Notes under the pieces: generated by a model
Seen by the model: only the letters and a program-made list of their open reading frames with translations
What the model was told of the DNA's origin: nothing
Database searches by the model: none
Assembly (NCBI GenBank): GCA_016870155.1
Contig: VGCE01000002.1
Span: 62,001-126,000 of the forward strand
Length of the DNA: 64,000 bases
Direction of reading: 5' to 3'
Origin: Actinomycetota bacterium
GTDB lineage: Bacteria; Actinomycetota; Thermoleophilia; Miltoncostaeales; Miltoncostaeaceae
In this document: piece by piece, positions 1 through 51,528 of the stretch
How positions within the stretch are numbered: the first letter of the stretch is position 1
Layout: every line of letters starts with the position of its first letter
Made by a program: the position numbers and the translations under genes

Positions 1-184
1 TCTGCGACAGCTCACCGGCCTCGACCGTGGCGATCCAACCGGCCCGCAGGGCCATCACGCCGAGCACCGCGACCACCGCGAGGGCGATCACGTGAAGGCG
101 CCGCGAGGGACCCTTCTCGTCGAACCGGCGCCGGCGCTTCGGCCGGGGCCTGTCAGCGCGTGCGCGGCGCCTGTCCTGGCGCAA
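1..184 (-). CDS. ftsI: FtsI-like penicillin-binding protein, N-terminal end only
   Basis: Only the first 61 codons lie in the window; the gene runs off the left edge. What is visible is a basic cytoplasmic segment (a KRRRRF stretch followed by DEKGPSRR) and then one hydrophobic segment (VIALAVVAVLGVMALRAG), the usual start of a class B penicillin-binding protein (septal transpeptidase). I chose the TTG at 184 because AAGGAAG sits about 6 bases upstream and no ATG or GTG lies in a good position. That start overlaps the upstream FtsL-like gene by 32 bases. The identity rests mainly on position (mraZ-rsmH-ftsL-ftsI is the standard order), since the transpeptidase domain is not seen. Confidence 0.6.
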   Translation of the reverse strand, partial: MRQDRRRARADRPRPKRRRRFDEKGPSRRLHVIALAVVAVLGVMALRAGWIATVEAGELSQ

Positions 185-635
185 TGCGCGCTTCCTTGGG
201 GACGCTCACGTGAGTCAGCCCGCTGCCGGGCGCCAGCACCAGGCCCAGGCGCTTCGATGCCTGGTCCACCACCTGGCCATCCTTCTCGGCCAGCACCGCA
301 CGCAAGCGCAGGATGTCCGACTGCGCCTGGTTGTACATGTCCACCGTGCGGCCGGTCTGCGTGGTGAGGTTGAGCCGCTGCACGTTGACGAACACCACGC
401 CGCCGAGCAGCAGCGCGATGAGCGGCACCAGCACCCACGCCAGCCGCACGCCCTGCAGGCGCAGCCGCTCGCGCAGCGTGGACGTGGTGCGCGAGTGGAT
501 GACGCGCGGCCGGGCGGGACGCGTGCCCTGCCCGGGAGCGCGGAGAGGGTGGCTGTCACCGGAACGGTGACTGTCACCGGGGTAGGCCCTGCCCGGCACG
601 CGAACCGTGCGCGCCGCGCCGGACCGGGTGCTCAT
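153..635 (-). CDS. ftsL: FtsL-like cell-division protein
   Basis: 160 residues. A basic, low-complexity cytoplasmic part (about 1-65) is followed by one membrane segment (about 69-90, AWVLVPLIALLLGGVVFVNV) and a short heptad-like region (QAQSDILRLRAVLAEKDGQVVDQ). This is the FtsL/DivIC layout: a bitopic protein that with FtsB/DivIC and FtsQ/DivIB activates septal peptidoglycan synthesis. FtsL sequences diverge widely, so the call depends on topology, size and position between rsmH and ftsI. The ATG at 635 overlaps the rsmH stop as ATGA, which implies translational coupling and decides the start. Confidence 0.65.
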   Translation of the reverse strand: MSTRSGAARTVRVPGRAYPGDSHRSGDSHPLRAPGQGTRPARPRVIHSRTTSTLRERLRLQGVRLAWVLVPLIALLLGGVVFVNVQRLNLTTQTGRTVDMYNQAQSDILRLRAVLAEKDGQVVDQASKRLGLVLAPGSGLTHVSVPKEARIAPGQAPRTR

Positions 636-1615
636 GCGTCCGCCTTGCGGATGACCCGCAGGCGTGCGGAGTGCGCGCGCGGGTTGGCGGCCACCTCGGC
701 CGTGATGGCCTTGACGGCCCTGGGCGTGACCATGCGGCCCTCGGGCGACTGCCCGCAGCCGCACACCGGCATGTCGGGCGGGCAGATGCATCCGCGCGTG
801 CGGTCGCGCATGAAGCGCTTCACCATGCGGTCCTCCAGCGACTGGAACGAGATCACGGCGAGGCGGCCGCCGGGGTCGAGCAGGTCGAAGGCCTCGGGGA
901 GGGCGCGCTCGAGGATTCCCAGCTCGTCGTTCACCTCGATGCGCAGCGCCTGGAACACCCGCTTGGCCGGGTGGCCGCCCGCGAAGAGCGCCGGCGTGGG
1001 CACCGCGCCGCGGATGACCTCCACCAGGTCGCCGGTGGTGGTGATGGGCCGCTCCTCACGATGGCGCACGATGGCGCGGGCGATCTGCTTGGCGTAGCGC
1101 TCCTCGCCGTACTCGCGGAACCACCGGGTGAGATCGTGCTCGGAGGCCTTATCCACAAGGTCTGCGGCGGTCACCTCGAGGGCAGGGTCCATCCGCATGT
1201 CGAGGGGGGCCTGCCGCGAATACGAGAAGCCCCGCTCCGCGGTGTCCACCTGCATCGACGAGAGGCCGAGATCCATCAGGATGATGTCGGCTTTCGCCCC
1301 GTCCGATGCGAGGTCCTCGAGCCCGGTGGCGAAGTCGGCGCGCGCCAGGCGGGCCGGGCACGGCATGTCGGCGGCCAGCGCCTCGAAGTGGCGCGCGGCC
1401 TCAGGGTCGCGGTCGATTCCCGTGAGCTGGCCCGTGGGCCCGACGCGCGCGGCGAGCGCGGCGGCGTGGCCGCCGGCGCCGAAGGTGCAGTCCACCACGC
1501 GGTCGCCGGGCTCGGGCGCGGTGAGCGCCAGCACCTGGTCGAGGAGGACGGGCAGATGGGGTGCGCCGCCCGGTGCCGCCGGGACGGCCTCGATGCGCGG
1601 CGCGGCGGCGGTCAT
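632..1615 (-). CDS. rsmH: 16S rRNA (cytosine1402-N4)-methyltransferase RsmH
   Basis: 327 residues, normal for RsmH (MraW), which uses S-adenosylmethionine to methylate N4 of C1402 in the ribosomal P site. Visible motifs: HLPVLLDQVL near the N-terminus, the SAM-binding loop DCTFGAGGHA, GIDRDPEA, and the family signature LMDLGLSSMQVD followed by RGFSY and DMRMDP. The C-terminal half has the FQALRIEVNDEL and FQSLEDRMVKRFM segments. The ATG at 1615 overlaps the mraZ stop by four bases. A longer frame upstream is open but lacks family similarity, so I rejected the earlier start. Confidence 0.95.
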   Translation of the reverse strand: MTAAAPRIEAVPAAPGGAPHLPVLLDQVLALTAPEPGDRVVDCTFGAGGHAAALAARVGPTGQLTGIDRDPEAARHFEALAADMPCPARLARADFATGLEDLASDGAKADIILMDLGLSSMQVDTAERGFSYSRQAPLDMRMDPALEVTAADLVDKASEHDLTRWFREYGEERYAKQIARAIVRHREERPITTTGDLVEVIRGAVPTPALFAGGHPAKRVFQALRIEVNDELGILERALPEAFDLLDPGGRLAVISFQSLEDRMVKRFMRDRTRGCICPPDMPVCGCGQSPEGRMVTPRAVKAITAEVAANPRAHSARLRVIRKADA

Positions 1616-2076
1616 CCCCGGCCCCCGTCGATGCGCTGCGACAGGCGGGCGGCCCGCTGGGCGACGCCGTCCTTGCGCAGCTTCGCGAAGCGCTGGTCGA
1701 GGCGCTGGGGATCCCACAGCTCCAGGTACGACCCGGCGCCGACCACCTTCACCTTGCCGTCAAGCCCCGCGTGGTCGCGCAACTCGGCCGGCACCAGCAG
1801 GCGGCCCTGCTTGTCGAGGCCCTCCTGCTCGAACGCGCCGGCGAGCAGGAACCTGCTGAGCTCGCGCTGGTCGTCGTCGAGCACGCTCATGCGGCCGAAG
1901 GTGTCCTCGATGAACGAGGGCCACTGGAAGCGGGGCACCACCACGAGGCAGTCGTCCAGCCACCAGGCGGTGACGGTGCCATCGGCGAAGGGCTCCCGCA
2001 GTCGGGCCGGAATCGCCAGCCGTGATCGGTCGTCGAGGCTGCATTCGTACGTGCCACTGAGAAGACGGGGTGCCAC
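1612..2076 (-). CDS. mraZ: Transcriptional regulator MraZ
   Basis: 154 residues from GTG at 2076; the family is normally 140-150. Two SpoVT/AbrB-type swapped-hairpin halves are visible: GTYECSLDDRSRLAIPARLRE near the N-terminus and LDKQGRLLVPAELRDHAG in the middle. MraZ binds TGGG-type repeats upstream of its own gene and tunes the division and cell-wall cluster. An ATG exists at 2112, but the extra residues have no counterpart in MraZ, and the GTG is preceded by a purine-rich stretch (GGGGGTAGG). First gene of the dcw operon here, coupled to rsmH. Confidence 0.93.
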   Translation of the reverse strand: MAPRLLSGTYECSLDDRSRLAIPARLREPFADGTVTAWWLDDCLVVVPRFQWPSFIEDTFGRMSVLDDDQRELSRFLLAGAFEQEGLDKQGRLLVPAELRDHAGLDGKVKVVGAGSYLELWDPQRLDQRFAKLRKDGVAQRAARLSQRIDGGRG

Positions 2077-2100
2077 GTCGGGGAACCTACCCCCGGCTTC

Positions 2101-2158
2101 CCCACAATGCAACCCATTTTCCCCGATTTGTTCTCACATCACCCCACCTGGCCACCCA
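2101..2158 (-). promoter_or_regulatory. Candidate MraZ operator: two pairs of TGGG repeats
   Basis: On the minus strand, just upstream of mraZ, TGGG occurs at 2158-2155, 2146-2143, 2116-2113 and 2104-2101. The members of each pair start exactly 12 bases apart and the pairs are 30 bases apart. MraZ of other bacteria recognises TGGG-containing direct repeats in its own promoter, classically with about 10-base spacing, so the role is plausible but the spacing differs. Confidence 0.4.
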
Positions 2159-2219
2159 CGGGCACCTCGCAACGCGTCGTGCGCCCCCGACGCGGTTCGT
2201 GCAACGCAGAGTGCGGTGA

Positions 2220-2231
2220 GAACACCTGTTC
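2220..2231. promoter_or_regulatory. LexA-like SOS box upstream of a small membrane protein gene
   Basis: The palindrome GAACACCTGTTC matches the GAAC-N4-GTTC core of the LexA operator used in Gram-positive bacteria and Actinobacteria. It lies 30 bases before the ATG at 2261 and overlaps the likely -35 region (a TACATT hexamer at 2248-2253 is a candidate -10). A second, inverted arrangement GTTC-N4-GAAC covers the start codon (2256-2267). One such core is expected by chance roughly once per window of this size, so position is the main argument. Confidence 0.4.
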
Positions 2232-2260
2232 CGTCCGACCCGGGGCGTACATTTGTTCGC

Positions 2261-2689
2261 ATGAACACGCGAACACACCTCACGCTCGTCCCCGCCACCG
2301 ACGCGGGGGCACCCACCTATCACCGCCGCTCACGCCGTGTCGGCGCCCCTCCCCCTGGCGGTCGCGCCGCCGGGATCGCCGCCCTGGCCGCGGGCCTCAC
2401 GCTGGGCCTGGCCCTTGGCGCCGCCGCCACGCTCGGCACGCACCCCGGCGACTACGCGATGCTGCTGCTGCCCGTGGCGGGCGCCGCCGGCATCACGCTG
2501 GCCGCGGCCTTTCGCAGCCGCGCCGTGGCGCTCAAACGGCGCCGCGCCGCCCAGCTGCGGCGCGACCGCCTCGACGCGCGCCGCCGGGCCGCCATTCCCA
2601 AGCCCGTCCTCGTGCATTCGCGCGATGAGTTCCGTCCGGTACTCATCGCCACCAGGTCCGTCGCGACGCCGACCGGGCGCGCGGCGTAG
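2261..2689 (+). CDS. Small membrane protein, unknown function
   Basis: 142 residues, not recognised. A 45-residue N-terminal arm rich in Arg and Pro precedes two hydrophobic segments (about 48-70, GIAALAAGLTLGLALGAAATLG, and 77-94, YAMLLLPVAGAAGITLAAAF), then a strongly basic tail (KRRRAAQLRRDRLDARRR). It is divergent from mraZ and appears nearly leaderless (TACATT about 8 bases before ATG). The LexA-like box in its promoter and its place beside the division cluster suggest a damage-induced protein, as small membrane division inhibitors are in other bacteria. That role is inference only. Confidence 0.65.
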   Translation: MNTRTHLTLVPATDAGAPTYHRRSRRVGAPPPGGRAAGIAALAAGLTLGLALGAAATLGTHPGDYAMLLLPVAGAAGITLAAAFRSRAVALKRRRAAQLRRDRLDARRRAAIPKPVLVHSRDEFRPVLIATRSVATPTGRAA

Positions 2690-2696
2690 GGCCCCT

Positions 2697-2729
2697 GCGC
2701 CCGGGGGTGCTGCTCCCACCCCCGGGCGC
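2697..2729 (+). terminator. Strong hairpin terminator
   Basis: A perfect 13-base inverted repeat (GCGCCCGGGGGTG ... CACCCCCGGGCGC) with a 7-base loop begins 8 bases after the stop of the preceding gene. There is no T-tract, as is common in high-GC genomes. Confidence 0.75.
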
Positions 2730-2794
2730 TCGGGTCATCTGCGGGAATCGCTGATACCGCGCGCGCAGGCGCGTGACCCGGTAACGTCGGCGCC

Positions 2795-3472
2795 GTGAGC
2801 GACGTCGACCGGCTAGCCGTCTTCGGCGACATCCACGCCAACCTCAAGGCCCTCGACGCGGTGCTCTCCGCGATCGCCGACGCAGGCATCACACGGGCCA
2901 TCGTCACCGGCGACCTGGTGCTGCGCGGGCTCGACCCCGAGAAGTGCGTCGCGCGCGTGCGCAAGACCGGTTGGCCGTGCGTGGAGGGCAACACCGACCG
3001 CCGCGTGGTGGGCAAGAAGGTGAAGCCCAAGACCGACGTGCGCGACATGCGCCCGGGCACACGCACCTGGACCAAGACCATGCTCAGCCAGAGGTCCATC
3101 GACTGGCTCGACGCCCTGCCGGCCATCGTGGAGGCCGACCTCGGCCCGCATCGCGTGGTCGCCGTGCACGGCGACCAGACCGTGCCGCCCGGCCTGGTCG
3201 ACAGCGCGGCCAGCGACGAGGAGATCATCTCCACGATGGACGCCCTCGGGGCAGACGTGCTGATCACCGCGCACACGCACTCGCCAATGCTGCGATGGGT
3301 GGAGGGCCGCCTCGTGGTGAACCCCGGCAGCGTGGGCGAGGGCACCGCCGACGACCACCGGCCGTGCTGGGCGTGGCTTCGGTCGACCGAGAACGGCATC
3401 GAGGCGGCCATCGAGCACCTGAACAGCCCCCTGGCCCCTCCGCGCGACAAGAACCACCGCAGGGGCGAGTAG
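2795..3472 (+). CDS. Metallophosphoesterase, YfcE/MJ0936-like
   Basis: 225 residues from GTG. Calcineurin-like fold motifs run in order: GDIHAN (11-16), the GDL/GNTD pair (VTGDLVL and VEGNTDRR), VAVHGDQ, then ITAHTHSPM and VVNPGSVGEG near the C-terminus. These supply the His/Asp/Asn ligands of a two-metal phosphoesterase. Relatives hydrolyse phosphodiesters in vitro and many lack a known substrate. It stands alone between a terminator and a convergent methyltransferase. Confidence 0.85.
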   Translation: MSDVDRLAVFGDIHANLKALDAVLSAIADAGITRAIVTGDLVLRGLDPEKCVARVRKTGWPCVEGNTDRRVVGKKVKPKTDVRDMRPGTRTWTKTMLSQRSIDWLDALPAIVEADLGPHRVVAVHGDQTVPPGLVDSAASDEEIISTMDALGADVLITAHTHSPMLRWVEGRLVVNPGSVGEGTADDHRPCWAWLRSTENGIEAAIEHLNSPLAPPRDKNHRRGE

Positions 3473-3500
3473 GCGCAGGCGCCCCGGGGGGAGCAGACCG

Positions 3501-4418
3501 CTAGCGCGCCGCCCGGCGCGCGATGGTCACCAGTTGCCCCCCATGCCCCACGGCGCGGGCGGTGGCGGCCACGGGAATCATCGCGGCGGCCAGCGCGCGG
3601 CCCAGCAGGCCCGTGCCCGGGTGCACCTGGGGGTCGAGGCCCGGTGCGATCGAGTAGGCTACCCCCGACGGGTAGCCCCACCCGCCCCGCGTGCCGATGT
3701 CGGCCACCGAGAACCGCGATGCCCCCAGCACCAGCCGCAGGGAGTCCTCGTCGAAGTGCCAGCGGTGACGCGAGGGCTCCCACCCGTGCCAGCGCGGCCC
3801 GAATGCCCGGGCCTCGGCGGAGCGGCGGTTGGGCACCGCCACGCCCAGAAGGCCGCCGTCTGCCAGCACGCCGGCCACCGTGCCCAGCCCGGCGTCGAGG
3901 TGGTGCAGGTGCTCCAGCACGTGCCACATCACCGCGGCCTGCGCCGTGCGCCCGTCCATCACCGCGGGCAGGTCATCCACCCCGGCGCGCACCACCTCCA
4001 CACGGGCCCCCGCCGGAAGCGACGACATCATCGCGTGCGCCCGCATCTCCTCCGCCGGGTCGGGCTCTATGGCGATCACCCGGAACCCGCGCTCGGCCAG
4101 CACGCGCGCGCGAAGCCCCGATCCCGCGCCCACATCCACCACGGTGTCGCCCGGGGCGAGGCGCCGCATCAGGTGCGACAGCCCCGCCGACACGATGCGC
4201 GATGCCAGGCGGTGCTCAACCTCGCCCGACGGCGACGCGGCCGGGGCGGCCGCCAGGTCGTCGGGCGCCGGCTCGGTGAAGCCCACCCCGCACACGCGGG
4301 AAGCGCACAGGCGGATGCTCGCCGGCGGCCCCTCGGTGCGGTCGCGGGGCGTGAGCAGGTAATGCGACTCGGCGCCGCAGCGGGGGCAAAGGGTGGCGTC
4401 CGGCATGGCGCTGACCAT
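3501..4418 (-). CDS. Zinc-ribbon plus SAM-dependent methyltransferase
   Basis: 305 residues. The N-terminus carries a CPRCG ... LCASRVCG four-cysteine knuckle (about 11-43). A class I methyltransferase domain (Methyltransf_23 type) follows, with the SAM loop VVDVGAGSGLRARVL, the acidic IAIEPDP strand end, and WHVLEHLHHLDAGL with VLADGGLLGVAVPN. Such zinc-ribbon methyltransferases often act on polyketide or glycan intermediates; the substrate here is unknown. Starts at 4418 (MVSAM) and 4406 (MPDATLCPRC) are equally possible, neither having a clear ribosome site. It lies downstream of the pilus operon, possibly in the same transcript. Confidence 0.8.
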   Translation of the reverse strand: MVSAMPDATLCPRCGAESHYLLTPRDRTEGPPASIRLCASRVCGVGFTEPAPDDLAAAPAASPSGEVEHRLASRIVSAGLSHLMRRLAPGDTVVDVGAGSGLRARVLAERGFRVIAIEPDPAEEMRAHAMMSSLPAGARVEVVRAGVDDLPAVMDGRTAQAAVMWHVLEHLHHLDAGLGTVAGVLADGGLLGVAVPNRRSAEARAFGPRWHGWEPSRHRWHFDEDSLRLVLGASRFSVADIGTRGGWGYPSGVAYSIAPGLDPQVHPGTGLLGRALAAAMIPVAATARAVGHGGQLVTIARRAAR

Positions 4419-4475
4419 ATCCGCTGGCGTCAGGTGGCCACGTCGTGGGCGGCAGTGATGCAGCGGGCCAATCGA

Positions 4476-4754
4476 TCACTGCGGGCCGATCCACGGCGGC
4501 AACATGACCCCGGGCGGTGCGGGCCGCGCCGGGCGCGGTCGCCGTGGTGCCCGGGGGCGATCGGGCCGTGCGGCCGGAGGCCGCACGATGGGGCGAAGCG
4601 GCGCCTCGATGAGCTTGATGATCGCCGGCAGCGGACGCACGGGCGCCCGGCGGCCCAGGCTGGTGGACCGCACGGCGAGCAGGCCGATGAACAACAGCAC
4701 CAGCACGATGACGATGCCGAGGTATTCAGCGGTCGTGGATCCGCGCTGGTTCAC
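4476..4754 (-). CDS. Flp/TadE-like pilin with proline-rich tail
   Basis: 92 residues. The N-terminus is a type IVb prepilin-like cleavage region, QRG/STTAEY, with Glu at +5 after the presumed cut, followed by a membrane helix (LGIVIVLVLLFIGLLAV). The second half is rich in Pro, Arg and Ala (APVRPLPAII ... RPRAPRRPRPARPAPPG), unlike the short polar tail of ordinary Flp pilins. The GTG at 4754 overlaps the TadC stop as GTGA, so it is the last coupled gene of the Tad operon. It is the only pilin-like protein seen here; it may be the structural subunit or a TadE-type minor pilin. Confidence 0.7.
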   Translation of the reverse strand: MNQRGSTTAEYLGIVIVLVLLFIGLLAVRSTSLGRRAPVRPLPAIIKLIEAPLRPIVRPPAARPDRPRAPRRPRPARPAPPGVMLPPWIGPQ

Positions 4755-5605
4755 GGGCCGCCGATCGCGATTCCCACCTGCGCAGCCATCTCCACCACCA
4801 TCACTCCCAGCACCAGCAGCATGGCGCCGGGCACCATGACGAGCGCCACCACCAACTGGATGCGCGGGGCCGCCCGCGCCGCGCGATCGCGTGCCCGCTG
4901 CCGCCGCGCGGCCCGCAGCGCCTCGGCCTGGCCGGCGAGCGCCGTGGCCAGCGGGGTGCCAAGCTCCTCGGCCTGCAGCAACGATGCCACGAGTCGACCG
5001 ACGTCCTCTGATGCCGTGCGCGCCGCCAGCGCCCGGTAGGCCTCGCGCCGCGGGGTGCCGAGCGCCTGGTCGGCGAGGGTGGCGCGCACCTCCTCGCCGA
5101 GCGATCCACCGAGACGGTCGGCGGCTAGCGCAAGAGCCGGGTCGAGGGCCATGCCGGCCTCCACGCAGATCACCATCAGGTCGAGGAGATCGGGCAGCGC
5201 ATCGACGATGTTGACCCGCCGGGCACGCGCCTGCCGCGCCACGGCGCGGTCGGGTGCCAGGCGTCCGAGCACCGCGCCCGGGGCCGCGAGGGCGACAAGG
5301 GGAAGCGCCACCACGCCCAGCACCGCGCCGGCAATGAATCCCGCCACCGCCCCACCCGCGCGAGCGCGCACCAGCGCAAGCCCGGCGATGTCCGCCGCCA
5401 GCCCCGCCGCCACGAGCGCGTCGGCGTTCGGCTGGCCTGCGATCGCGGTGCGAAGGCGGGCGGGCACCGGGAGGCGTGCGAGAAGGGCCACCTGCCGCGG
5501 CAGCACATGCTCCGGGAGCGGCGCGCGATTGCGGCGCAGCACGATCCACCCGATGGCCGCGCTCAGGATTGCGGCCGTCGCCATGAGCGCCGTGGGCGAC
5601 GGCAT
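4751..5605 (-). CDS. tadC: TadC-like inner-membrane pilus assembly protein
   Basis: 284 residues, GspF/TadC family. TadC pairs with TadB as the membrane platform on which the CpaF ATPase drives Flp pilus assembly. Visible are two hydrophobic stretches around residues 65-110, the conserved cytoplasmic core DALPDLLDLMVICVEAGMALDPAL and LLQAEELGTPLATAL, and a C-terminal hydrophobic helix pair (IQLVVALVMVPGAMLLVLGVMVVEM). The ATG at 5605 shares one base with the TadB stop (TGATG). An upstream-extended frame exists but lies inside tadB. Confidence 0.85.
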   Translation of the reverse strand: MPSPTALMATAAILSAAIGWIVLRRNRAPLPEHVLPRQVALLARLPVPARLRTAIAGQPNADALVAAGLAADIAGLALVRARAGGAVAGFIAGAVLGVVALPLVALAAPGAVLGRLAPDRAVARQARARRVNIVDALPDLLDLMVICVEAGMALDPALALAADRLGGSLGEEVRATLADQALGTPRREAYRALAARTASEDVGRLVASLLQAEELGTPLATALAGQAEALRAARRQRARDRAARAAPRIQLVVALVMVPGAMLLVLGVMVVEMAAQVGIAIGGP

Positions 5606-6483
5606 CACGGCCGCACCGCCGCGATGCGCCGGATGATGAGGATTCCCGCCACCTGCAGCAGCACCGATGCCAGAAGCACGATGGCCCCGGTGGGCGTGGA
5701 CGCCGTGCGGCTGATCAACCCCGGAGCCGCGGCCTCGGCAAGGGCGGCACCCAGCACGGGCAGCGCCGCGACCATCCATGCGGTGGCGCGTGCCTGGGCC
5801 GTGGCGCCCCGCAGCTCGCGTGCAAGGCGCCCGCGCTCCTCTAGGCGCGCGGCCATGTCGCGCAGGGCACGCGCGAGGTCGCCCCCGGTGCGCCGCTGCA
5901 CGAGGATGGCCGTGACCAGCAGGCCCAGGTCCGGGTCAGGCAGCCGGTGCGCCAGGCCCGCCAGGGCATCGTCCACGCGTGCCCCCAGCTCCATCTCGCC
6001 CGACGCGCGCCGAAGCTCGGCGCCGAGCGGATCGGGGGTGTCCCTCGCCGCCCGCACGATCGCCTGCCGCAGGGATAACCCGGCTGCCACGGCGCTCGCC
6101 AGCATCTGCGCCACGGACGGCATGGCCTCGCCCACGCGTCGCAGGTGCCGGCGGTCGGCGGCGGACAGGAACACCCGCAGGCCGATCACCCCTACCAGCA
6201 GCCCCGGCAGGGCCATCAACGGACGGCGCAGCACCACCAGCAGCACCAGCGCGCTCACGAGGCTCGCCGCGAGCGCGCACCCGAGCAGCAGGGCGGGATC
6301 AACGGCGAGGCCTGCGCGCTCCGCGCGGCCCGCCAGCGCGCGAGCCCCGGGAAGCCACGCCGGCATGGCGCCCCCACGGCCGCGACGCGTGGGAAGCGCA
6401 CCGGCGGCCGCGGCAGCACGGGCCCCAGCCACCAGCGCCAGCGCCGAACCGGCAGCCAGCAGCGGTCCCACGACGCCGCTCAC
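5605..6483 (-). CDS. tadB: TadB-like inner-membrane pilus assembly protein
   Basis: 292 residues. An N-terminal membrane segment, two central ones (LLLGCALAASLVSALVLLVVL and LPGLLVGVIGLRVFLSAA), the T2SF core (MPSVAQMLASAVAAGLSLRQAI ... LLVTAILVQRRTGGDLARALRDMA) and C-terminal helices identify a GspF-domain protein of the TadB type. It follows cpaF with an ATGA overlap and precedes tadC. Confidence 0.87.
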   Translation of the reverse strand: MSGVVGPLLAAGSALALVAGARAAAAAGALPTRRGRGGAMPAWLPGARALAGRAERAGLAVDPALLLGCALAASLVSALVLLVVLRRPLMALPGLLVGVIGLRVFLSAADRRHLRRVGEAMPSVAQMLASAVAAGLSLRQAIVRAARDTPDPLGAELRRASGEMELGARVDDALAGLAHRLPDPDLGLLVTAILVQRRTGGDLARALRDMAARLEERGRLARELRGATAQARATAWMVAALPVLGAALAEAAAPGLISRTASTPTGAIVLLASVLLQVAGILIIRRIAAVRP

Positions 6484-44435: not shown

Positions 44436-45470
44436 TCAGGCGTCCACGATCGCGCGCAGGCGCGCGATCACCTCCACGGGGTCAGGGGTGGCGGCCGAGA
44501 GCACGACGCACGTGACACCGGCGTCGCGCAGCGCATCCAGGCGACCCGCAATCTCATCAGGGGCGCCGATGAGCGCCAGGGCGTCCACCATGGCATCGCT
44601 GACGCAGGCTTCGGCATCGCGCGCACGCCCGGCGAGTGCGGCGTCGCGCACCGCGTCACAGGCACCCGCGAACCCCATGGCCGACACCGCATCGCGGTAG
44701 TAGTTGCGATCACGCGAGCCCATCGACCCCACATAGAAGGCGATCTCGCGCCGTGCGGCGGCCCGGGCCGCATCGGCGCCGTCGCCGGATCCCACCCAGC
44801 ACACCGCCGACGTCGTGATGCTGAGCGGCCCGAGCGCGACCTCGCGCCGCGCCGCGCCCTGCGCGAGGGCATCGCCCCATTGCCCACGGATGGCATCGGG
44901 GGTGGCGAAAAGCGGCCACCAGCCGTCGGCCAGCTCGGCGGCCAGCCGCACGCCCCCGGGCGCCAGGGCCGCCACCACGATCGGCACGCGCTCGCGATGG
45001 GGCCGGGTGATCATCCTCAGGGGCTTGCCCAGGCCGGTGCCCTGGCCGGGCGGCAGCGGGATCGGCCTGGGCCCGTCGACCTCGAGCACGTCGCGGCTCC
45101 AGGCCGTCCGGCAGGCCGCGATGGCCTCGCGCAACTCCCCGAGGGGGCGCGCGAACGGCACACCGTGCCAGCCCTCCACTACCTGCGGGCCGGAGGTGCC
45201 GAGGCCCGCGATGGCCCGGCCGCCCGACAGCGCATCGGCGCCCGCGATCGTCTGGGCGATGAGCGCCGGGCTGCGCGAGTACACCGGCAGCACCGCGCCC
45301 ATGCGGATGCGCGCTGTGCGCGCGGCGATGGCCCCCATGAGCGTGGGCGCATCGAAACCCCATGTCTCGGGAATCCAGGCCTCGTCGGCGCCGGCGCCTT
45401 CAGCCTGCGCCACCAGGTCGAGGGAGGTGGCCGGATGGGCCATGTGGCTGAGGGCGATGCCGATTCTCAC
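44436..45470 (-). CDS. LLM-class (F420-type) flavin oxidoreductase
   Basis: 344 residues from GTG 45470. Luciferase-like TIM-barrel segments: MRIGIALSHMAHPATSLDLVAQAEGAGADEAWIPET, TARIRMGAVLPVYSRSPALIAQTI, GLGTSGPQVVEGWHGVPF, RVPIVVAALAPGGVRLAAELADGWWP. In Actinobacteria this class usually uses coenzyme F420. Substrate unknown. Its neighbour on one side is a broken deacetylase; on the other, divergent, the E1-KAS III fusion. Confidence 0.87.
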   Translation of the reverse strand: MRIGIALSHMAHPATSLDLVAQAEGAGADEAWIPETWGFDAPTLMGAIAARTARIRMGAVLPVYSRSPALIAQTIAGADALSGGRAIAGLGTSGPQVVEGWHGVPFARPLGELREAIAACRTAWSRDVLEVDGPRPIPLPPGQGTGLGKPLRMITRPHRERVPIVVAALAPGGVRLAAELADGWWPLFATPDAIRGQWGDALAQGAARREVALGPLSITTSAVCWVGSGDGADAARAAARREIAFYVGSMGSRDRNYYRDAVSAMGFAGACDAVRDAALAGRARDAEACVSDAMVDALALIGAPDEIAGRLDALRDAGVTCVVLSAATPDPVEVIARLRAIVDA

Positions 45471-45567
45471 GCGGTGATCGTACGCGGAGCCCTGCCCCGC
45501 GCGGCAGGCCGCTGAGGCACCGTGACCACGATCAGGCGCCGGCTCGCCCCGATCCCAACTCCCGCGC

Positions 45568-45597
45568 TGGACATGCGTCCGCATGCCCGTCTATCTT
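45568..45597 (+). promoter_or_regulatory. Promoter of the E1/KAS III fusion gene
   Basis: TGGACA (45568-45573), an 18-base spacer and TATCTT (45592-45597) closely match a housekeeping promoter. Transcription would begin near 45604, 50 bases before ATG 45654. This excludes the in-frame GTG at 45522 as start. Confidence 0.55.
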
Positions 45598-45653
45598 CGA
45601 CGCGTTTCATCCCCCGGGCGGATGCATTGGGTCGCCCGTCCCGGCACTCGACG

Positions 45654-48600
45654 ATGGGCGATCAGCTGAGCACCGCAGCAGAGCAGGCCACCACCGCGCG
45701 CAGGCGTTCACTCGCGGTCCTGCGCGCGATGATGAGCGCGCGCTGGATCGACGCGGTGGAGGAGGAGCTCGTCCAGCGCGGCGAGGCGTTCTTCCAGCTC
45801 GGCGGCGCCGGGCACGAGGCATCGGCCGTGCTGGCCGATCACCTCAGCCCGCAGGACTGGCTGCAGCCGCACTACCGCTCGCGTGCGCTTCTGGTGCGCC
45901 GGGGCATCGCGCCCGAGCGATTCTTCGACGGCCTGCTCTCCACCGCGAACTCCGATTCCGCCGGCCGCCAGATGCCGGCGTTCCTGCACGACGCCGACCT
46001 GCACGTGCTGCCCATGACCGTGCCCACGGGCAACGGCCTGCTGCACGCGGTGGGCGTGGCCCGCGAGGTGGCGGGGCGGCCGGGCCGCCCCATCGTGGTG
46101 GCCGGGGTGGGCGACGGCACCACCCAGCAGGGCGAGGTTATGGAGGCCATCGGCGAGGCCGCGCGCGAGGGCCTTCCCGTGCTCTTCTGGATCGAGGACA
46201 ACGGCTACGCGATATCCACGCGCACGAGCGGCCGCACCATCTACGACACCGCCACCGGCCCGGCGAGCGAGTTCCTGGGGGCGCCGATCGTGCGCGCCGA
46301 CGGGCGCGACCCGATGTCGCTCGACATCGTGGCCGCACGCGCGGTGCAGGACGTGCGCGAGGCGCGCCGGCCGGTGCTCCTGGTGGCCCAGGTGGAGCGC
46401 CTCACGCACCACACCAACGCCGATGACGAGGCCGTGTACCGCACCGACGACGAGCGGGCCGCCGCGCGGGCCGGCGACCCCATCGCCGCGCTGCGCGAGA
46501 ACCTGATCGCCGAGGGAGTACCGGCCGATGAGCTGGTGGCACTCGACCGCGAGGTGGAGGCCGAGGTGCGCGCTGCCGCGGCACGAGCACTCGCCGCAGA
46601 CGACCCCATGGCATCGCGTCGGGCCATTCGCCCGGTGTCCACCGAGGTCATCACCCGGGCGAGCGCGCCGGCCGAGGCCGGCGAGGGCGCACCGCGCACC
46701 ATGCTCGAGGCCATGCGCGACGTTCTTGCACGCCGCCTCGAGGCCGATGAGCGTGTGTCGCTGATGGGGCAGGACATCGAGGACCCCAAGGGCGATGTGT
46801 TCGGCCTCACGCGCGGGCTCTCCACCGCGCGCCCGGGCCGGGTCACCAACGCACCGCTCAGCGAATCAACCATCGTGGGCACCGCCATCGGGCGGGCGCT
46901 CGCCGGCGGGCGGCCCGTGGCGATGGTGCAGTTCGCCGACTTCCTGCCGCTGGCGTTCAACCAGATCGCCTCGGAGCTCGCCACCATCTACTGGCGCACC
47001 GACGGCGCCTGGTCGGCCCCCGTGGTCATCCTCGCCCCCTGCGGCGCATACCGGCCGGGGCTCGGGCCCTTCCACGCCCAGACCATGGAGGCCACGTTCG
47101 CCCACATCCCGGGCCTCGACGTCGCCATGCCCAGCACGGCCGACGACGCCGCGGGCATCCTCGAGGCCGCCCTCGACGGTGACCGTCCCACGCTCATCCT
47201 CTACCCCAAGACATGCCTCAACGATCCCCTGCGCGCATCGCGCGTGCAGGGCACGCACCGCCCGGTGGTGCCCGGGCACGCCGCGGTGCGCCACCGCGGT
47301 GACGACGTGACGATCGTGGCGTGGGGATCCACGGCCCCCATCGCCGAGCGCGCCGCCGCGGTGCTCGACGCCGCCGGCGTGGGCGTGGATCTCATCGACC
47401 TTCGCAGCATCGCGCCCTGGGACATGGAGGCCGTCACCGCCAGCGCCGCGCGCACGCGCAGGCTGGTGGTGGTGCATGAGGACAACCTCACCGGCGGCTT
47501 CGGCGCCGAGGTGGTGGCGCACGTATCCGACCACCTCGAAGGAGACCTCACCACGCGCCGCATCGCGCGCCCCGACACCTGGGTGCCCAACCACTACGCG
47601 AACCAGCTCGAGGTGCTGCCCAGCGCGCGCGACGTGGTGGAGGCCGTGGCCGGGATGATCGGTGGCCTCGAGGTGACCGAGGCCGAGGGCGCGCAGGAGG
47701 TGGACGGCGTGCTGGCCGTGGAGGCCACCGGATCGAGCCCCGCCGACCAGCAGGTGACGGTGGTGGAATGGATGGTGGCCGAGGGCGACACCGTCACCGA
47801 GGGGCAGGTGATCGCCGAGGCCGAGGGCGACAAGGCCACCTTCGAGTTGGCCGCGCCGGCCTCGGGGGAGATCTCCGACCTTCACGAGGAGCTCGAGCCG
47901 GTGCCGGTCGGCACCGTGCTGGCCAGCATCACGTTGGCGCCGGGCGCGGCTGCTGCCCGCCGCCGCATGCCCATCGAGCCCAGGCTGCGCGTGCGGCGCG
48001 TCCCTGGCCACCAACCCTCGCCGGTGCGCGCAGCCGCAGCTGCGCCTGCCGTGCTGGCGCCTCCGGTGGGGCTCTCAGGCTTCTCGGTTCGCGCGGGCGG
48101 GCGGATCCTCACCAACGCCGACATCGCCGCGCGATTCCCGGGCCGCACCGAGGCCGACATCGTGCGGCGCACGGGAATCCGCCAGCGCCCCGTGCTTGCC
48201 CCCGGCGAGGACATCTCCGCCCTGGCCGCCCGGGCCGCGCGCGAGGCGCTCGACGCCGAGGGCCTGGCACTGGGCGACCTCGAGGCCATCATCGCCGCCA
48301 CCGGCACCCCCACCCGGCTCAGCCCATCGGTGGCCTGCCTCGTGCAGAACGCCCTGGCCGAGGACGACGGCCCCGCCGACGTGGCCGCCAGCGACGTATC
48401 GGCTGCGTGTTCGGGCTACCTCTACGCCATGCAGACAGCACACGACATGCTGCAGCAGAGGCCCGAGGCCTCGGTGCTGGTGGTCACGGCCGAGGCCATG
48501 ACCCGCTACGTCGACCCCGACGACTTCGACACCGTGGTGGTGTTCGGCGACGCCGTGACGGCCACCGTGGTGCACGGGCCCGCGCGGGCCGGCGACTCGC

Positions 48601-49028
48601 CCGTGCTGCTGCACCGCCCCGTGCTGTCGGCGAGCGGCGACGACGGCTCGGTGATCCGCCACGGGCCCGCGGACGAGGACCACCTGTTCATGGACGGCCC
48701 GCGCGTATACACCCGCGCCGTGCGCGAGATGCTGCACATGCTCGACCGTGCCGCCGGGCAGTCAGGGGCCTCGACGGCTGAGCTGATGCACGTGATCCCG
48801 CACCAGGCGAACGGCCGCATCATCTCGTCCATCCAGGCCCGCAGCGGCCTGCCCGCAGACCGCTTCGTGGTGAATGTCGAGAACTGGGGCAACACGTCGT
48901 CGTCCACCATCCCGATCGCCATCGCCGAGCACCTTCCCACCGGCCCCACCGGCCTCGGTGGCCTGGTGGCCTTCGGCGCCGGCCTCACATCGGCAGCCGC
49001 CGTCGTGGAGTTCACGGGCAAGGACTGA
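45654..49028 (+). CDS. Four-domain fusion: 2-oxoacid dehydrogenase E1alpha-E1beta, lipoyl domain, KAS III (FabH-like)
   Basis: 1124 residues in one frame. (1) E1alpha, about 10-330: thiamine-diphosphate motif GDGTTQQG at 153 with the metal-binding Asn at 183 (IEDNGYAIS). (2) E1beta, about 350-670: MLEAMRDVLARRLEADERVSLMGQDI, PLSESTIVGTAIGRALAGGRPVAMVQFADF. (3) A lipoyl domain, about 683-765, with Lys727 in EGDKATFE. (4) After an Ala/Pro linker, a full-length KAS III, about 805-1124, with Cys919 (SAACSGY), His1050 (IPHQANG) and Asn1080 (WGNTSSS), spaced as in FabH. No E2 catalytic domain and no E3 are present. Inference: a 2-oxoacid, perhaps branched-chain, is decarboxylated, the acyl group rides on lipoyl-Lys727 and is condensed, directly or through CoA, by the KAS III domain. 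Start chosen from the promoter at 45568. Confidence 0.92.
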   Translation: MGDQLSTAAEQATTARRRSLAVLRAMMSARWIDAVEEELVQRGEAFFQLGGAGHEASAVLADHLSPQDWLQPHYRSRALLVRRGIAPERFFDGLLSTANSDSAGRQMPAFLHDADLHVLPMTVPTGNGLLHAVGVAREVAGRPGRPIVVAGVGDGTTQQGEVMEAIGEAAREGLPVLFWIEDNGYAISTRTSGRTIYDTATGPASEFLGAPIVRADGRDPMSLDIVAARAVQDVREARRPVLLVAQVERLTHHTNADDEAVYRTDDERAAARAGDPIAALRENLIAEGVPADELVALDREVEAEVRAAAARALAADDPMASRRAIRPVSTEVITRASAPAEAGEGAPRTMLEAMRDVLARRLEADERVSLMGQDIEDPKGDVFGLTRGLSTARPGRVTNAPLSESTIVGTAIGRALAGGRPVAMVQFADFLPLAFNQIASELATIYWRTDGAWSAPVVILAPCGAYRPGLGPFHAQTMEATFAHIPGLDVAMPSTADDAAGILEAALDGDRPTLILYPKTCLNDPLRASRVQGTHRPVVPGHAAVRHRGDDVTIVAWGSTAPIAERAAAVLDAAGVGVDLIDLRSIAPWDMEAVTASAARTRRLVVVHEDNLTGGFGAEVVAHVSDHLEGDLTTRRIARPDTWVPNHYANQLEVLPSARDVVEAVAGMIGGLEVTEAEGAQEVDGVLAVEATGSSPADQQVTVVEWMVAEGDTVTEGQVIAEAEGDKATFELAAPASGEISDLHEELEPVPVGTVLASITLAPGAAAARRRMPIEPRLRVRRVPGHQPSPVRAAAAAPAVLAPPVGLSGFSVRAGGRILTNADIAARFPGRTEADIVRRTGIRQRPVLAPGEDISALAARAAREALDAEGLALGDLEAIIAATGTPTRLSPSVACLVQNALAEDDGPADVAASDVSAACSGYLYAMQTAHDMLQQRPEASVLVVTAEAMTRYVDPDDFDTVVVFGDAVTATVVHGPARAGDSPVLLHRPVLSASGDDGSVIRHGPADEDHLFMDGPRVYTRAVREMLHMLDRAAGQSGASTAELMHVIPHQANGRIISSIQARSGLPADRFVVNVENWGNTSSSTIPIAIAEHLPTGPTGLGGLVAFGAGLTSAAAVVEFTGKD

Positions 49029-50116: not shown

Positions 50117-51196
50117 TCAGCGAGCGGCCACCGGCGCGGCGGCGTCGAGGCGCGCGACCTCCCTGCGCACCGCGGGCGCCACCTCGGTGCCGTAGAGCTC
50201 GATGGCCCGCAGCATGTCGGCATGCGGAGGGTTGCCCACGCCCATGTGCAGCAGCACGCGGCGATTGCCGAACATCTCGTACTCGGCGAGGATCTTCTCG
50301 GTCACCTCGGCCGGGCTCCCCACCATCAGCGCGCCGTGCGGCTGGCGCATGCGGTCGAACTGCGCGCGGTCGATCTGGCTGCCCCACCCGCGCTCGCCGC
50401 CGATCTGGTTCATGGCGGCCATGAGCCCCGGGGCCGAGATGTCGGCGGCCCTCTGCGAGGTGTCGGCGATGAACCCGTGCGACCCGATGGACACCGGCAC
50501 CTGCGCGGGGTCATGCCCGTACTCGGTGAGCGCCTCGCGGTAGAGGTTGGCGAAGGGGATGAATGGCTGGGCGGCAGCCCCGATGATGGCCACGGAGATG
50601 GGCAGCCCACGGGCGGCGGCGTTCACCACCGACTGCGGCGTGCCACCCACGGCGATCCACACGGGAATGCGCTCCTGCTGCGGCCGCGGGTGCACCGGGC
50701 GCCCCTCGATGGGCGGACGGCGCGTGCCGCTCCAGGTGACCACCTCCTGCTCGCGCAGATGCAGCAGCAAGTCGAGCTTCTCGAGGAACAGGCCTTCGTA
50801 GTCGGCCAGGTCATAGCCGAAGAGCGGAAACGACTCGATGAAGGACCCGCGGCCGGCCATGATCTCGGCGCGGCCGCCCGAGATGAGGTCGATGGTGGCG
50901 AAGTCCTGGAACACGCGCACCGGGTCGTCGGACGACAGCACGGTGACCGACGAGGTGAGGCGTATGCGCGAGGTGCGCGCGGCTGCGGCGGCCAGCACCA
51001 CGGCGGGGGACGACACCGGGAAGTCCGGTCGGTGGTGCTCGCCCACCCCGAACACGTCGAGCCCCACCTCGTCGGCCAGGACGATCTCGTCCACGAGGTC
51101 GCGAACGCGCTGGCCCACGTCGATGGCGCGGCCGGTGGCCGGGTCGGGCGTGGCGTCTCCGAACGAGTAGATGCCGAGTTCGATTCCCTGCGTCAT
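50117..51196 (-). CDS. LLM-class flavin oxidoreductase
   Basis: 359 residues. Luciferase-like barrel: [107 protein letters not shown]. This subgroup is often annotated as an FMN- or F420-dependent monooxygenase acting on alkanals or small organics. It is distinct in sequence from the LLM enzyme at 44436. ATG 51196 overlaps the next gene's stop (ATGA). Confidence 0.88.
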
Positions 51197-51528
51197 GCGT
51201 CCTCCTCCCCCGTCTCGCGCTCGCGCCGCGCGTCGTCGAGCTCGCGCTGTATGCGCCCGTCGTCGCGCTCCGCGAGGATGACATAGGCGATGTAGAACAC
51301 GCCGAGGCTGATGCCCAGCCCCGCGGCGATCCACAGGAAGGGCGACCATCCGAGCGGCGCTCCGATGGCCCACGCGATGAGCAGGCTCACAGGCACCATG
51401 ATGGCCCCGAGCGCCCACACGCGGCGCTTGGCCGAGTGGGTGTACTCGGGGTTGGGATGCAGCCCGTGCTGCTCCGCCGCCACCCGGGCGACGATCTCAT
51501 CACGCGACTCGCGCTTACGTCCTGCCAC
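51193..51528 (-). CDS. Two-helix membrane protein, unknown function
   Basis: 111 residues from GTG 51528 (ATG 51570 would add 14 residues). Basic N-terminus ([24 protein letters not shown]), two membrane segments ([18 protein letters not shown] and [23 protein letters not shown]), charged C-terminus ([17 protein letters not shown]). Coupled to the LLM oxidoreductase downstream. Confidence 0.6.

Follow-up and report, generated by a model that had tools for sequence, protein, structure and literature searches.

A fused E1-lipoyl-KAS III protein with an altered CoA-adenine site in two bacterial phyla, a putative CoA-bypassing starter synthase

By the known routes, the acyl group made by a 2-oxo acid dehydrogenase complex is passed to CoA by its E2 component, and the acyl-CoA is then taken up by FabH. 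The window analyzed here, a stretch of 64,000 nucleotides from a genome of the actinobacterial family Miltoncostaeaceae, contains a gene that joins parts of both systems in one chain. The frame at 45654-49028 (+) is open over 1124 codons, as had been claimed from the sequence alone, and a Pfam search detected E1_dh at residues 24-316 (E 1.9e-39), followed by Transket_pyr (349-522), Transketolase_C (541-653), Biotin_lipoyl (PF00364; 701-759, E 9.9e-13), ACP_syn_III (914-975) and ACP_syn_III_C (1037-1119). Neither 2-oxoacid_dh nor E3_binding domains were found when the whole frame was searched, and thus the original prediction of E1-alpha, E1-beta, lipoyl domain and KAS III in one chain with no E2 domain was borne out. 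Moreover, Lys727 sits in the lipoyl motif EGDKA, and Cys919, His1050 and Asn1080 align with C112, H244 and N274 of Escherichia coli FabH, indicating that these assignments were also right. The features of the locus are as follows.

45568-45597, + strand: sigma-70-like promoter match, TGGACA-18-TATCTT (consensus match only; the upstream patch is conserved in the genus)
45654-49028, + strand: fused gene, with the limits given in the original prediction; the true start is perhaps CTG 45666 or ATG 45729
45723-46601, + strand: E1-alpha, ThDP-binding, residues 24-316, with GRQMP and HHxxxDD motifs
46698-47612, + strand: E1-beta (Transket_pyr and Transketolase_C), residues 349-653, with catalytic Glu404
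47721-47942, + strand: lipoyl domain, residues 690-763, with Lys727 at 47832-47834
47943-48065, + strand: variable, probably flexible linker from lipoyl domain to KAS III, residues 764-804 (from its length and pLDDT)
48066-49013, + strand: KAS III (FabH-like), residues 805-1120
48144-48158, + strand: R831 to D835, at the FabH T28 and W32 positions, CoA-adenine contacts lost
48321-48323, + strand: S890, at the FabH F87 position, acyl-size gate opened
48408-48410, + strand: Cys919, nucleophile (FabH C112)
48525-48527, + strand: F958, at the FabH R151 position, CoA-adenine stack lost
48801-48803, + strand: His1050 (FabH H244)
48891-48893, + strand: Asn1080 (FabH N274)

The best solved relatives of the fusion by sequence were 2-oxo acid dehydrogenase E1-beta, FabH and E1-alpha. 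An AlphaFold2 model generated from 34 homologues had a mean pLDDT of 83, with values <50 at residues 789-800 of the lipoyl-KAS III linker. When this model was submitted to Foldseek, it matched the E1-beta of Thermus and Pseudomonas branched-chain dehydrogenases (BCKDH) and FabHs with target TM-scores of ~0.9, and no E2 catalytic domain was present among the 50 matches listed. In each of the 34 aligned homologues the lipoyl domain was 73 residues long, with no length change, and the linker behind it measured 40-61 amino acids and was little conserved. Constant domains joined by variable linkers are what is expected where a flexible tether connects folded domains.

Next, the E1 part was compared with the described dehydrogenases. 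Like the E1 of the branched-chain complex, it has the ThDP motif and the catalytic Glu. Of the branched-chain E1s of Thermus (1um9), human (1dtw) and P. putida (1qs0), 1um9 was the best PDB match of the E1-alpha part, and 1um9_B and 1qs0_B of the whole model. Unlike these enzymes, however, it has alpha and beta parts in one chain and the lipoyl domain on the E1 chain, and unlike the branched-chain complex it comes with no E2 or E3 partner genes. The best NCBIfam matches of the E1-alpha part by sequence were those of PDH E1 (TIGR03181/TIGR03182), the cut-offs of which are far from reached (167.7 vs 411; 116.6 vs 394), while the separate PDH of the same genome passes. The original prediction related the protein to branched-chain starter synthesis, and this part of it is the weaker one. 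The GRQMP motif of E1-alpha is indeed common to the aligned branched-chain E1s (Thermus 1um9, human BCKDH), and since E1-alpha is nearest to the Thermus branched-chain E1, and the acyl-size gate of the KAS III is open (see below), branched-chain 2-oxo acids may be taken as a first guess for the substrate. On the other hand, the pocket segment PTGN/PVGN (PxGN) differs from the aligned enzymes, and the substrate pocket as read from these alignments is not close enough to any characterised class for the 2-oxo acid to be named.

Inspection of the host genome revealed three E1s: the PDH, with E1-alpha and E1-beta above the curated cut-offs, Kgd and the fusion. Its E2 catalytic domains were two, in the PDH and Kgd loci, and the genomes of the genus contained no more than two each; hence, no dedicated E2 for the fusion was found in the chain or in its own genome beyond these loci. 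There is one lipoamide dehydrogenase (E3), and aceE was not found in this genome. A lipB-like frame, recognized by eye, lies directly behind the PDH E2. The genome also encodes a separate FabH, with plsX- and fabD-like frames, also recognized by eye, around it, and a separate FabH was present in 15 of 15 Verrucomicrobial fusion genomes tested (see below for the distribution); the fusion therefore has an additional function and does not replace FabH.

These stand-alone enzymes served as reference for CoA binding. FabH holds the adenine of CoA through Thr28 and by stacking it between Trp32 and Arg151, and Arg36 and two Asn hold the pantetheine (PMC4606726). The fused KAS III shares with FabH the fold, the Cys-His-Asn triad, R249, R36 and N247, and these three residues, along with A246 and G209, are the same in the fused and the stand-alone enzymes. 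In contrast, all 41 fused KAS III domains have R/D/F in place of T28/W32/R151, and all 11 stand-alone FabHs of the same organisms (the host genome and ten Verrucomicrobial genomes) keep T/W/R. Unlike FabH, the fused domain is joined to E1 and lipoyl domains, and it missed the curated FabH cut-offs of both PRK09352 (237.9 vs 249) and TIGR00747 (205.7 vs 292.1). At the F87 position, Ser was found in 41/41 fusions versus Phe in 11/11 stand-alone FabHs; the bulk of Phe87 restricts the E. coli enzyme to acetyl, and Thr is found in the long-chain Mycobacterium tuberculosis enzyme (PMC3734052). This substitution suggests that the acyl group handled by the fused KAS III is probably larger than acetyl. 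In addition, every fusion has Thr, Pro or Gln at the position of Lys/Arg214 in the basic ACP/CoA patch, and malonyl-ACP as the acceptor is therefore not assured. As judged from these alignments, the chemistry and the pantetheine side of the site are kept, the adenine side is lost and there is room for a larger acyl group. Because the 41 fused sequences share one ancestor, this is to be read as one evolutionary change strictly maintained, not as 41 events. The loss of the adenine site shows that CoA would be bound differently or not at all by the fused KAS III; that lipoyl is the donor does not follow from it. It provides sequence evidence that is independent of the domain order and that had not been foreseen by the original prediction.

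The changed site bears on the simplest alternative, according to which the fusion would only bring the reactions into proximity: the PDH E2 would make acyl-CoA in trans, and the tethered KAS III would use it as FabH does. The presence of a PDH E2 and an E3 in the genome and the retention of the pantetheine contacts R36 and N247 fit this possibility, and the PDH E2 could in principle serve the fusion in trans; yet the uniform T/W/R to R/D/F change, in genomes whose FabHs keep these residues, along with the lack of both a dedicated E2 and a subunit-binding domain, argues against it, and we regard it as unlikely. The CoA- and E2-free transfer anticipated originally thus gained the uniform loss of adenine contacts and the lack of a dedicated E2 in its favor, and it stays an inference. 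What weighs against the CoA-bypass reading, besides the points above, is that the chain lacks a peripheral subunit-binding domain by which E3 could reach it.

To assess the state of each domain, we compared 42 distinct fusions from the two phyla. D182, N183, E404, Lys727, Cys919, His1050 and Asn1080 were invariant where present, the GDG...DN motif of E1-alpha, Glu404, Lys727 and the Cys-His-Asn triad being invariant or nearly so, and both Lys727 and Ala728 of the DK(A/V) lipoyl site were found in 42/42. Within the genus, every domain had a dN/dS of 0.06-0.26, and the lipoyl-KAS III linker had higher values of up to 0.49. All domains of the fusion are under purifying selection, and these values along with the invariant residues rule out a degenerate domain. 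The same residues help to judge whether the KAS III acts as a pure acyltransferase, a stand-in for E2 that would transfer the acyl group from lipoyl to ACP, CoA or another acceptor with no condensation. Acyltransferases exist among the relatives of KAS III, the domain stands in the chain where an E2 would, and the ACP/CoA patch has lost K214, all of which would suit such a role; His and Asn, required for decarboxylative condensation, are nevertheless invariant along with Cys, and so we consider this explanation improbable as well.

The distribution of the fusion was then analyzed. Within its own genus, 17 of the 19 genomes sampled carry it, whole or in contig-end pieces; of 17 genomes from elsewhere in the family, a single one, of another genus, does so (G028, 60% identity). 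When 84,980 species genomes were scanned with the peptide HHTNADDE, by which distant members could be missed, 48 fusion loci were obtained; as this peptide is kept in every aligned fusion, most close members should have been met. According to titles and identities, 17 of these loci belong to Miltoncostaeales-type actinobacterial MAGs and 31 to Verrucomicrobiota MAGs, the latter proteins being ~50-56% identical to that of the window over the whole length. In one Verrucomicrobial family, a match at E≤1e-90 was obtained in 28 of 50 sampled species. Every record with the fusion is a MAG, and no isolate was seen among them. Four contigs (L039, L072, L078 and L047) carry an actinobacterial (Miltoncostaeales-type) or verrucomicrobial fusion under MAG titles (Bifidobacterium breve, Akkermansia muciniphila, Acidobacteria) that look misassigned. 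The domain order is therefore conserved as a unit across the genus, in G028 and in Verrucomicrobiota, and its full-length recurrence in many genomes of two phyla rules out chance or misassembly. Collectively, these comparisons indicate that the fusion is an old, maintained unit. Other candidates from the searches were discarded: the larger E1 frames in L112 and L113 were frame artefacts around plain E1-alpha/beta fusions, and the E1 matches L082-L087, L089 and L090 were ordinary E1/E2 operons or E1 genes with no KAS III joined.

Among the sequences compared, the nearest E1-beta outside the fusion was that of L111 (47% identity vs ≤40% for others), an E1-alpha/beta gene that adjoins a Verrucomicrobial polyketide synthase in the genome of L052. 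Its E1 forms a clade with that of the fusion with support of 100/96, both branches being long. As to the direction of transfer between the phyla, a single clade of the actinobacterial copies was not rejected (AU p 0.44), and L111, used as root, is a long branch. The polyketide synthase of L111, at 3-4196 (-) and 4200-6314 (-), starts with lipoyl, E2 catalytic, ACP and KS domains, and its E2 domain has DHRLIQG where DHxxxDG is usual; this series is possibly a CoA-free loading module. No E2-ACP of this type was found in 145 other Verrucomicrobiota species by a search that had no positive control. Like the fusion, L111 has a related E1-alpha/beta beside a lipoyl arm feeding a ketosynthase, whereas it keeps the E2 catalytic domain and ACP, its KS is of the elongating polyketide synthase type and the genes are separate. 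By its domain content it is a natural parallel, in which the front end of a 2-oxo acid dehydrogenase is wired to a ketosynthase, still through E2 and ACP.

This relationship raises the question of purpose, since the same chemistry could provide the starter of a secondary metabolite or a special lipid and not of membrane branched-chain fatty acids. Such an explanation overlaps with the best explanation given below, which leaves the product open. Apart from the polyketide synthase beside the nearest non-fusion E1, the presence of FabH besides the fusion speaks for it; against it, no biosynthetic cluster or conserved neighbor was found around the fusion in either phylum, and the fusion is kept through small genomes of ~1.4-2 Mb, which suggests a core role. 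We see it as possible, though doubtful. With 41 loci compared, no neighbor was common to both phyla or within Verrucomicrobiota, and operon context was discarded as a clue to the product. In the window, two luciferase-like monooxygenases (PF00296) are encoded near the fusion on the opposite strand, at 44439-45584 and 50120-51265 (-); the former is directly upstream and recurs beside the fusion in nine loci of the genus.

The start of the gene was also reconsidered. It had been placed at ATG 45654, which is probably wrong: the sister genomes that could be aligned here have ATC at this codon, and in L036 and L037 an in-frame TAA lies a few codons past its position, making the true start uncertain and leaving the domains untouched. 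ATG 45729 (M26) was kept in 8/8 aligned rows, as was the CTG at residue 5, and the true start probably lies downstream of 45654. An own promoter had likewise been claimed at 45568-45597. This match to the consensus (9/12) had no second in the scanned stretch, where 0.2 were expected, and it is in a patch conserved in the genus, which is suggestive of a promoter for the fused gene and is not proof. A conserved GGACATGCGTCC-like palindromic stretch at 45568-45620 in the genus alignment overlaps the promoter match and could be an operator.

Taking this together, we favor as rather probable that the fusion is a CoA-bypassing, single-chain starter synthase, leading from 2-oxo acid through acyl-lipoyl and KAS III to beta-ketoacyl-ACP. 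The fused E1-alpha/beta would decarboxylate, with ThDP, a 2-oxo acid that is most likely branched-chain or otherwise larger than pyruvate, and would then reductively acylate the lipoyl group predicted on Lys727 of the same chain or dimer. Carried on flexible linkers, the lipoyl domain would deliver the acyl group to the attached KAS III, where Cys919 would take it directly from dihydrolipoyl. Condensation with a malonyl thioester, probably malonyl-ACP, would give the beta-ketoacyl starter, and the single lipoamide dehydrogenase of the genome would reoxidise the lipoyl arm; E2 and free acyl-CoA would be bypassed.

No description of such a fusion and no fatty-acid profile of the lineages that bear it were found in the literature searched, most subscription journals being outside its reach. 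Each domain is of a known kind, and their combination into one four-domain enzyme whose CoA site is rebuilt is a new variation on these; if direct transfer were proved, the priming step would be new. The whole proposal, namely a ketosynthase that in two phyla is primed by its own tethered acyl-dihydrolipoyl arm, free of CoA and E2, with the CoA site of its KAS III rebuilt for a lipoyl donor, has in our view an even chance of being right. The R/D/F adenine site and the Ser gate are two sequence signatures that make the idea directly testable. If true, the fusion would offer a single-gene tool for non-acetyl starters, and with this E2-less enzyme fatty-acid or polyketide synthesis would be primed in a new manner.
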